A stretch of DNA of 38,675 bases, taken from NCBI GenBank assembly GCA_022767485.1, contig JALEMY010000024.1, positions 1 to 38,675 on the forward strand. The letters are read 5' to 3'. Each line of letters begins with the position of its first letter. Position 1 is the first letter of the stretch. The translations under genes were made by a program, and so were the position numbers. A model generated the notes under the pieces. That model was not told the origin of the DNA, searched no databases, and worked only from the letters and a program-made list of their open reading frames with translations. Shown one piece after another: positions 16,288 to 19,217 of this stretch. The stretch comes from Erysipelotrichaceae bacterium. GTDB lineage: Bacteria > Bacillota_I > Bacilli_A > RFN20 > CAG-631.

Positions 16288-16743
16288 GTGAAAGATAACA
16301 ATATAAGTCTAGCACACACAATGTGGAATTGTAAGTATCATGTAGTATTCGCACCAAAATATAGAAGAAAAGTTTTCTACGGAAGTAAAAGATTGGAAAT
16401 AGGAGCAATACTAAGAAGATTATGTGAGTTCAAAGGAGTAACGATAATTGAGGCAGAGGTATGTCCTGATCATGTGCACATGCTCCTTGAAATACCACCC
16501 AAAATGAGCGTTTCCGGATTCATGGGATACTTGAAAGGAAAATCCAGTTTAATGATTTATCAAAGATGGGGAAACATGAAGTTCAAATATAGGAACCGCG
16601 AATTTTGGTGTAGAGGGTTCTATGTCGACACAGTCGGCAAGAACACTAAGAAAATTAAGGAATATATCAGCAATCAATTAAAAGAAGACGAAGAAATGAC
16701 ACAACTGAGTATAGAATTTCAAGGAGACCCTTTCAAAGGGTAA
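16288..16743 (+). CDS. tnpA: IS200-family Y1 transposase TnpA
   Basis: This 151-residue protein is full length for the family. It starts at GTG 16288, 7 bases after GGGAGGTG. The HUH motif is in CPDHVHMLLEIPP and the catalytic Tyr is most likely in KKIKEYISNQL. TnpA of this group moves one DNA strand by cut-and-join within replication forks, working as a dimer. The opening AHTMWNCKYHVVFAPKYRRK is highly typical. No frameshift or stop is present, so the element may be active. It reads in the same direction as topA and xerC. Confidence 0.96.
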   Translation: MKDNNISLAHTMWNCKYHVVFAPKYRRKVFYGSKRLEIGAILRRLCEFKGVTIIEAEVCPDHVHMLLEIPPKMSVSGFMGYLKGKSSLMIYQRWGNMKFKYRNREFWCRGFYVDTVGKNTKKIKEYISNQLKEDEEMTQLSIEFQGDPFKG

Positions 16744-18100: not shown

Positions 18101-18110
18101 ATCACCGAAA

Positions 18111-18273
18111 GATTGATAGAGGCGCGACCAAAAATAGTACTTTTTGGAGGAGACATCCTATGAAGCAAAGGAAAGGTGCGGTCGCCGAAACAATAACTTG
18201 GTAGAGTTATTGATTGGGCTATAGGAAAATATCTTATAGACTCCTACATACTTTTGTAGAGGCGCTATTACTT
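18111..18273 (+). promoter_or_regulatory. Lysine riboswitch (L-box) aptamer
   Basis: The conserved blocks of the lysine riboswitch occur in order: GATAGAGGCGCGA, then AGTA, GGAG, GAAAGGTGCGGTCGCCGAA, TTGGGC, and the closing TAGAGGCGCTATT. P1 pairs TGATAG (18114-18119) with CTATTA (18265-18270). A distal arm pairs CTATAGG / CTTATAG and another CTCCTACA / TGTAGAG. The layout matches the well-known Bacillus subtilis lysC leader. It controls the transporter operon that follows, probably shutting it off when lysine is plentiful. Confidence 0.92.
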
Positions 18274-18290
18274 GTAATCCTTAATAAATT

Positions 18291-18341: not shown

Positions 18342-19217
18342 ATGAGAAAAAGTTTTAAAGTAATTCTTTGCACATTGCTTATTAGTGCAATTTCTAGTTG
18401 TAAGCAAGAAAGTTCTAGTGGTGAACTTTGTATCGTGCATTTTGATCAAACGATTTTAGGTGACGCACAAAAAGATTTAGGAGTTTCAATTGGCGTAAGA
18501 AAAGATGATAGCGATCTTGAAAATTCCTTAAATGAAGCATTAGAAGCATTAACAAGTGATCAAAGAAATAAGATGATGGAAGAAGCAATAGATAGATCAA
18601 ATTCGATTTATGACACTTCTACATCAAGAGTATATGAAGTTGATGTAAACGCTAGTAAAACTTTAAGAGTTGGTCTTGAATGCGATTATGCCCCATTTAA
18701 TTGGACGGATACAGCAGCAAACGATTATAATTATTTAATTAAAGGTAGTGATTTTTATGCTGATGGCTACGATATTCAAGTTGCTCGTTATTTAGCTAAC
18801 TATTTATCTTATTCTTTAGAAATTGTAAAACTTGGTTGGGATGCTTTGATTCCATCATTAAATCAAAATCAAATTGATGTCGTTATCGCCGGGATGACAG
18901 ATACTGAAGATAGAAGACAATCTATTAGCTTCACTAATGAATATTATGTATCTGAACTAGTATTGATAGTTAGAAAAGATAGTCAATATGCAAGTGCTAC
19001 ATCTCTTGAAGAATTTGCCAATGCTAGAATTGTTAGTCAAGTATCTACAGTTACCGATGAAGTTATTGAAGCATGGGTTAATAGTTATAATGTTAATCAC
19101 CTTTCACCTTTAGATACATTTGCAACATGTGCAATTGCAGTTTCAAACAAAACCGCTGATGCTATGACTGCAGAATTACCAGTTGCCAATTCAATTGTTA
19201 ATGGAAGTAAAGCATAA
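18342..19217 (+). CDS. Lysine-type ABC transporter binding lipoprotein, apparently circularly permuted
   Basis: This 291-residue lipoprotein has a signal peptide ending in the lipobox ISSC (Cys20). Residues about 27-85 match the usual C-terminal end of the SBP_bac_3 family (VSIGVRKDDSDLENSLNEAL). After a linker of about 20 residues, residues 107-291 match the usual start and middle: TLRVGLECDYAPFNW, GYDIQVARYL, LGWDALIPSLNQNQIDVVIA, GMTDTEDRRQSISFT, YVSELVLIVRKDS, and stop just after ELPVANSIVNG. Joined end to end the two parts make one whole domain, so this is a permutation, not a truncation. The riboswitch upstream points to lysine as substrate. The stop codon overlaps the permease ATG by one base. 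The ribosome site is AAGGAGG. Confidence 0.9.
   Translation: MRKSFKVILCTLLISAISSCKQESSSGELCIVHFDQTILGDAQKDLGVSIGVRKDDSDLENSLNEALEALTSDQRNKMMEEAIDRSNSIYDTSTSRVYEVDVNASKTLRVGLECDYAPFNWTDTAANDYNYLIKGSDFYADGYDIQVARYLANYLSYSLEIVKLGWDALIPSLNQNQIDVVIAGMTDTEDRRQSISFTNEYYVSELVLIVRKDSQYASATSLEEFANARIVSQVSTVTDEVIEAWVNSYNVNHLSPLDTFATCAIAVSNKTADAMTAELPVANSIVNGSKA

Follow-up and report, generated by a model that had tools for sequence, protein, structure and literature searches.

The operon and its binding-protein gene

The window, the whole 38,675-nucleotide stretch of Erysipelotrichaceae DNA analyzed here, carries a lysine riboswitch aptamer followed by genes for a solute-binding lipoprotein (P0001), an ABC permease, and an ABC ATPase (Table 1). 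The ORF of the binding protein, for which the initial annotation gave the right bounds, overlaps the start of the permease gene with its stop codon, and the permease and ATPase genes overlap as well, which is the genomic context of an ABC-importer binding protein. The signal peptide and lipidated cysteine are also present in the permuted homologues described below. The permease scored below the cut-offs of the GlnP and cystine permease models, and the GlnQ score of the ATPase was below the equivalog cut-off. An IS200-like transposase ORF, recognized by eye, lies ~2 kb upstream of the binding-protein gene (window positions 16288-16743, +).

Table 1. Features of the operon in the window and chains of the second register in other loci
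Feature	Position	Strand	Basis or remark
Lysine riboswitch aptamer (RF00168), operon leader	18109..18275	+	cmscan, 92 bits vs gathering score 30; full model, 1-182
Signal peptide and lipobox, ISS before lipidated Cys20	18342..18401	+	Read from sequence
Circularly permuted lysine-type solute-binding lipoprotein P0001, 291 aa, order C-linker-Na-Nb	18342..19217	+	ATG start; stop codon ends at 19217
Moved piece, the canonical C-terminal closing segment, residues ~28-90	18423..18611	+
Linker from old C-terminus to old N-terminus, residues ~91-106	18612..18659	+	Alignment A2
N-terminal part of the canonical domain (lobe 2 and the remainder of lobe 1), residues 107-291	18660..19214	+	Pfam match 108-227; conserved columns
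ABC permease, polar amino-acid type, 254 aa	19217..19981	+	HEQRo_perm_3TM above cut-off
ABC ATPase, GlnQ/HisP type, 249 aa	19978..20727	+	Best NCBIfam model GlnQ, E 1.6e-89
Second-register binding domain-permease chain, L111	2660-4441	+
Second-register binding domain-permease chain, L112	1940-3721	-
Second-register binding domain-permease chain, L113	2804-4504	+

Segment order and predicted fold of P0001

The initial annotation proposed that P0001 is a circularly permuted amino-acid-binding protein, in which the canonical C-terminal end of an SBP_bac_3 domain stands straight after the lipobox and the canonical start follows a linker. The Pfam SBP_bac_3 profile (PF00497) matched residues 108-227 from profile position 1 to 98 (E 7e-25), and its 87.7 bits, compared with the curated cut-off of 26.4, place the protein in the family; the N-terminal piece weakly matched only the end of this profile (positions 97-122, E 0.096). 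Likewise, the best match among PDB sequences covered query residues 107-285 and, in an arginine-binding protein of 227 residues, extended to residue 171; a second, weak match paired query residues 49-78 with the C-terminus of the same protein. When residues 27-90 were compared with the canonical homologue L034, the alignment scored 137 and fell entirely within the last 62 residues of L034, compared to a score of 19 against its first 62 residues. Chance likeness of the N-terminal piece was ruled out, given that none of 1000 shuffles of the moved piece scored above 49 against L034 (mean 29.7, sd 4.7), and the identity of this piece as the canonical C-terminal end was thus confirmed.

P0001 as encoded aligned with L034 over only 191 positions. 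After re-circularization, it aligned end to end, with 128 identities in 248 positions (52%) and only a 5-residue gap at the join. The two segments, in exchanged order, therefore add up to one whole domain homologous to the canonical protein, as had been proposed, and the order C-linker-Na-Nb departs from the canonical linear one. Several bounds in the initial annotation needed correction: the moved piece, correctly placed but delimited as residues 27-85, spans approximately 28-90; the linker, proposed to have 20 residues, is present and comprises residues ~91-106 by alignment A2 or 87-106 by the structural model (16-20 residues in length); and the protein ends in ...ELPVANSIVNGSKA instead of the terminus given. 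TIGR01096 was the best of all NCBIfam models for P0001, at 100.7 bits over profile positions 20-188 only, below the subfamily cut-off of 256.35. P0001 is accordingly a topological variant of the SBP_bac_3/type II (cluster F) proteins rather than an ordinary member.

Columns that are invariant or nearly so in the canonical relatives are retained in P0001, namely, EC(D)YAPFNW, W64, AGM, R89, Q137, T140, and E182 (L034 numbering), which, judging from the LAO and ArgBP structures, we take to be the ligand site. The moved piece is under purifying selection, with dN/dS of 0.06-0.23 in three homologue pairs and in comparisons against P0001; the linker is looser in one homologue pair (dN/dS 0.91, over 21 codons only).

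AlphaFold2 (AF2) modeling of mature P0001 from 111 aligned sequences, where canonical relatives entered only as two separate fragments, yielded a mean pLDDT of 92.6 and a pTM of 0.87, with pLDDT mostly 93-98 in the moved piece. The canonical control L034 (51 sequences; pLDDT 96.2, pTM 0.89) contains the same elements unrotated: its E196-201, H203-213, and E214-220 correspond to E9-12, H16-26, and E27-32 of the permuted model, and its H224-235 and H239-254 to H37-49 and H52-66. Thus, the moved piece has the elements E-H-E-H-H of canonical residues 196-254, and the remaining elements follow in canonical order; the linker region, which connects the final C-piece helix with the first strand of Na, lacks regular secondary structure. 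The model is a two-lobe fold with its closing C-terminal segment, all elements of the control being present in rotated order, so that none is missing from the lobe. Given the confident prediction of the whole chain, separate packing of residues 27-85 as a domain of their own appears unlikely.

In Foldseek searches against the PDB, the permuted model retrieved type II amino-acid-binding proteins, mostly over 174-182 columns and with query TM-scores of 0.38-0.56; the canonical control retrieved the same proteins, mostly over 240-256 columns and with TM-scores mostly of 0.60-0.73. The shorter alignments of the permuted model are as expected from a sequential aligner, which should lose columns if the domain is permuted.

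Relatives, a second register, and origins

Relatives with the same segment order, for which the initial annotation suggested a search, were found in eight other genomes. Among 196 genomes of the bacterial order, homologues collinear with P0001 (from approximately residue 3-25 to 290) were present in six at 51-67% identity, and two more (G123 and G138) encode homologues with the same arrangement at 32% identity. Two profile models placed C before N in P0001, L002-L007, L031, L032, L114, and L115 and recovered N before C in canonical relatives; L031 and L032, the permuted loci from a scan of public genomes, are identical in sequence to L003 and L002, respectively. A junction model, that is, a C-linker-Na profile derived from alignment A2, gave full-length matches in 12 of the 279 genomes searched in the bacterial order, nine with the arrangement of P0001 (first register) and three with a second one. 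The first-register genomes span four family groups of the bacterial order. Among the matches listed for the overlapping class (395 genomes) and phylum (392 genomes) samples, full-length junction matches ranked first and all came from this order, with none outside it, and a plasmid search returned partial matches only, to the canonical part. Together, the sequence comparisons, these relatives, the rotated predicted fold, and purifying selection on the moved piece support circular permutation.

Each of the 12 permuted genomes contains a single match to the junction model and no canonical copy, so the permuted gene takes the place of its canonical counterpart; three genera (g24, g7, and g25) include both forms. 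Neither the permuted gene family nor any lysine riboswitch was detected in three genomes of the same genus or family as the window (G008, G014, and G020), and the operon may therefore have been acquired horizontally. Near the first-register gene of G123, matches to group II intron domains D1-D4 were observed (L114, 5463-5722, -).

The second register was identified in ORFs of 567-594 amino acids in G002, G016, and G108, which were considered as intact tandems and rejected as such because each consists of one domain in the second register and a permease. The chain runs from a lipobox through Nb (from ..IIAGMTDTEERR), C, a linker, and Na (to ..WDALLPWA) to the ABC permease, and in L111 and L113 the Pfam matches are to SBP_bac_3 profile positions 57-119 and then BPD_transp_1. 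In this register, the domain is cut elsewhere, in the loop that connects the helix W.ALLP to the strand IIAGMT, and the C-to-Na linker is about as long as that of the first register. Canonical N-C binding domains were also found in long ORFs (L014, L027, and L117-L120); L027, L117, L118, L119, and L120, with a permease match in the same locus, were taken as canonical binding domain-permease fusions. A further arrangement, tandem binding domains in shifted register, was observed in other proteins of the bacterial order, encoded in L123 (1630-3972, -) and L122 (2102-3910, -), where an SBP_bac_3 half domain (lobe 2 and tail) precedes a full domain and a half domain (lobe 1); in L123, a permease follows within the same 781-aa chain.

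For the binding-protein tree, all sequences were put in canonical order beforehand. The seven main first-register proteins clustered (84/82) beside the second-register proteins and canonical sisters of the bacterial order, and L114 and L115 grouped on a long branch with Clostridia-type proteins. A single clade of all nine first-register proteins was rejected (AU p 0.002), as was one of all twelve permuted proteins (p 0.006); for a clade of the main seven with the second register, the test was borderline against (p 0.042). The tree of the permeases, which are not rearranged, agrees with the rejection of a single first-register origin: L114 and L115 stand apart, and the main seven, the second register, and two canonical fusions group together (99/94). 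Because the AU rejection and the permease tree concur, the sequences indicate that the first register originated independently two or more times, subject to the long branches.

The permuted form probably arose via tandem duplication of the canonical gene with subsequent loss of both outer parts, leaving C1-linker-Na2-Nb2. In another lineage of the bacterial order, the binding domain has the arrangement Nb-C-linker-Na and is fused to the permease; G123 and G138, a third group, appear to have reached the first register separately. Among the matches listed for the overlapping order, class, and phylum samples (279, 395, and 392 genomes, respectively), no intact tandem shared this junction, so that we infer the duplication route. 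In a Clostridia genome, two canonical lysine-type binding-protein genes lie next to each other (L091, 2608-3741 and 4073-4936, +), the sort of duplication able to yield a permutant. On balance, we consider it likely that the lysine binders of this bacterial order were permuted several times, in two registers (as a free lipoprotein and as a permease fusion), with the permuted gene as the sole, riboswitch-controlled copy.

Probable lysine uptake and comparison with known permutants

All 12 permuted genomes, those with second-register genes included, have a lysine riboswitch upstream of the permuted gene, and one also lies upstream of the canonical gene at all six loci tested; it was the only lysine riboswitch in each of the ten tested genomes having one (nine permuted and one canonical). 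Lysine, initially a guess, is thereby indirectly supported as the ligand, and the combination of the riboswitch with the permease and ATPase genes makes lysine uptake the likely function of the operon. The riboswitch names lysine as the regulator, and arginine or ornithine could be bound as well. No member of the DHDPS family was detected in G005, G002, G108, or G123 (91-98% complete), in which the permuted gene is the lysine-riboswitch gene, so these bacteria probably are unable to make lysine by the usual route; one DHDPS was found in G000.

Taken together, these observations are best explained, with a probability of roughly 0.88, by P0001 serving a lysine ABC importer as its binding lipoprotein, with a type II (Venus-flytrap) domain that has been circularly permuted in nature. 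The 16-20-residue linker joins the old domain ends, both in lobe 1, and the new ends lie where the chain crosses between the lobes for the second time, after the last lobe 2 helix and ahead of the strand returning to lobe 1. By analogy with canonical members, the protein would bind lysine, close on it, and hand it over to the adjacently encoded permease; its lipid tether, however, would sit on the hinge/lobe 2 side rather than at the first lobe 1 strand.

The assembly of the window genome is fragmented (180 contigs, 81% complete), which could raise the suspicion that two paralogous genes were joined by an assembly or annotation artefact. This is next to impossible: the same arrangement in eight other genomes excludes an assembly error, and its occurrence in four family groups at 32-67% identity, as one copy per genome and with purifying selection on both parts, argues equally against an artefact. 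Somewhat less remote is a domain-swapped dimer, where lobe 1 of one molecule is closed by the N-terminal piece of its neighbor and no intramolecular permutant exists. Segment swapping has been documented for permuted halves of the ribose-binding protein (PMC9815098), but P0001 was confidently predicted as a monomer from one chain, LAO-BP has both old ends on one lobe, and the engineered permutant cpLAO-BP works with a 12-residue linker (PMC5087393), making the swapped form improbable.

Also improbable, and marginally more so, is the reading that the gene is decaying or encodes a protein without a role in transport, for example, a sensor or scavenger, with the real lysine importer using another binding protein. 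The precedent in its favor is the loss of affinity in cpLAO-BP, with a lysine Kd of 107 µM vs 3 µM for native LAO-BP (PMC5087393). Against it, the gene is first in a riboswitch operon and overlaps the permease gene, the same genomes contain no canonical copy and only one lysine riboswitch each, DHDPS is missing in four genomes, and dN/dS is low. The permuted protein is real, conserved, and most likely functional.

Compared with canonical LAO-type binders (TIGR01096, LAO 1LST, L034), P0001 is homologous throughout and shares the conserved site residues, operon type, and riboswitch, but the canonical proteins have the order Na-Nb-C and are lipid-anchored ahead of the first lobe 1 strand. A laboratory-made permutant of the same fold and ligand class, cpLAO-BP, was employed in lysine FRET sensors, after Okada et al. 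2009. In this protein, which still binds lysine, one of the two interlobe connections was opened and the old ends were joined by (GGS)4 (PMC5087393). Like P0001, it has its old ends short-linked and its new ends on different lobes, a likeness at the level of the opened interlobe connection.

Among natural proteins, the closest parallel is TpMglB-2 (Tp0684), a glucose-binding lipoprotein of Treponema pallidum for which a "type Ic/cluster Bc" was proposed; in tests, this type I sugar binder retained ligand binding and closure, and its authors suggested that tethering may favor the topology (PMC4990184). Both are lipid-anchored natural permutants of ABC binding proteins, and TpMglB-2 has same-topology relatives in Gram-positive gut bacteria, but it differs from P0001 in its type I fold, sugar ligand, and cut site, with a fourth crossover. 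Furthermore, the permuted part of TpMglB-2 is ~13% identical to the canonical one, whereas the moved piece of P0001 is clearly homologous, and P0001 has canonical sisters at ~52% identity in the same bacterial order. With type II amino-acid binders, and not type I proteins, as its best structural matches, P0001 is not a type Ic member, although the rearrangement is of the same kind.

Permuted relationships were also reported, in a CPSARST structure search, for glycine-betaine-binding (OpuAC 2B4L, ProX 1R9L/1SW1) and molybdate-binding proteins (PMC2395249). These resemble P0001 in that natural permutation separates ligand-binding proteins with a conserved pocket position, but they were recognized by structure comparison only, at <24% identity, between old families that do not bind amino acids. 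The initial annotation knew of no description of such a permutation; this holds for SBP_bac_3, for which no report of a natural permutant was found in the open-access literature searched, but has to be qualified by the natural glucose and, on structural grounds, glycine-betaine binders and by the artificially permuted LAO. Within a well-known family, P0001 represents a new topology, the recurrent origin of which is, together with the second register, the most surprising aspect.

Most natural permutations were recognized by comparing distantly related proteins, for which causes cannot be told apart from effects. Here, permuted and canonical forms are approximately 50% identical, occur in the same genera, and share the same riboswitch and homologous permeases, so that the effect of permutation on affinity, closure, anchoring, and permease docking is directly testable and the duplication-truncation route traceable. 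The solution adopted in lysine biosensors also exists in nature as a product of long selection, and this natural version may provide better permuted scaffolds. If repeated permutation in two registers is true, these bacteria would offer a living topological series for measuring, between close relatives, what is lost or gained when the anchor moves.
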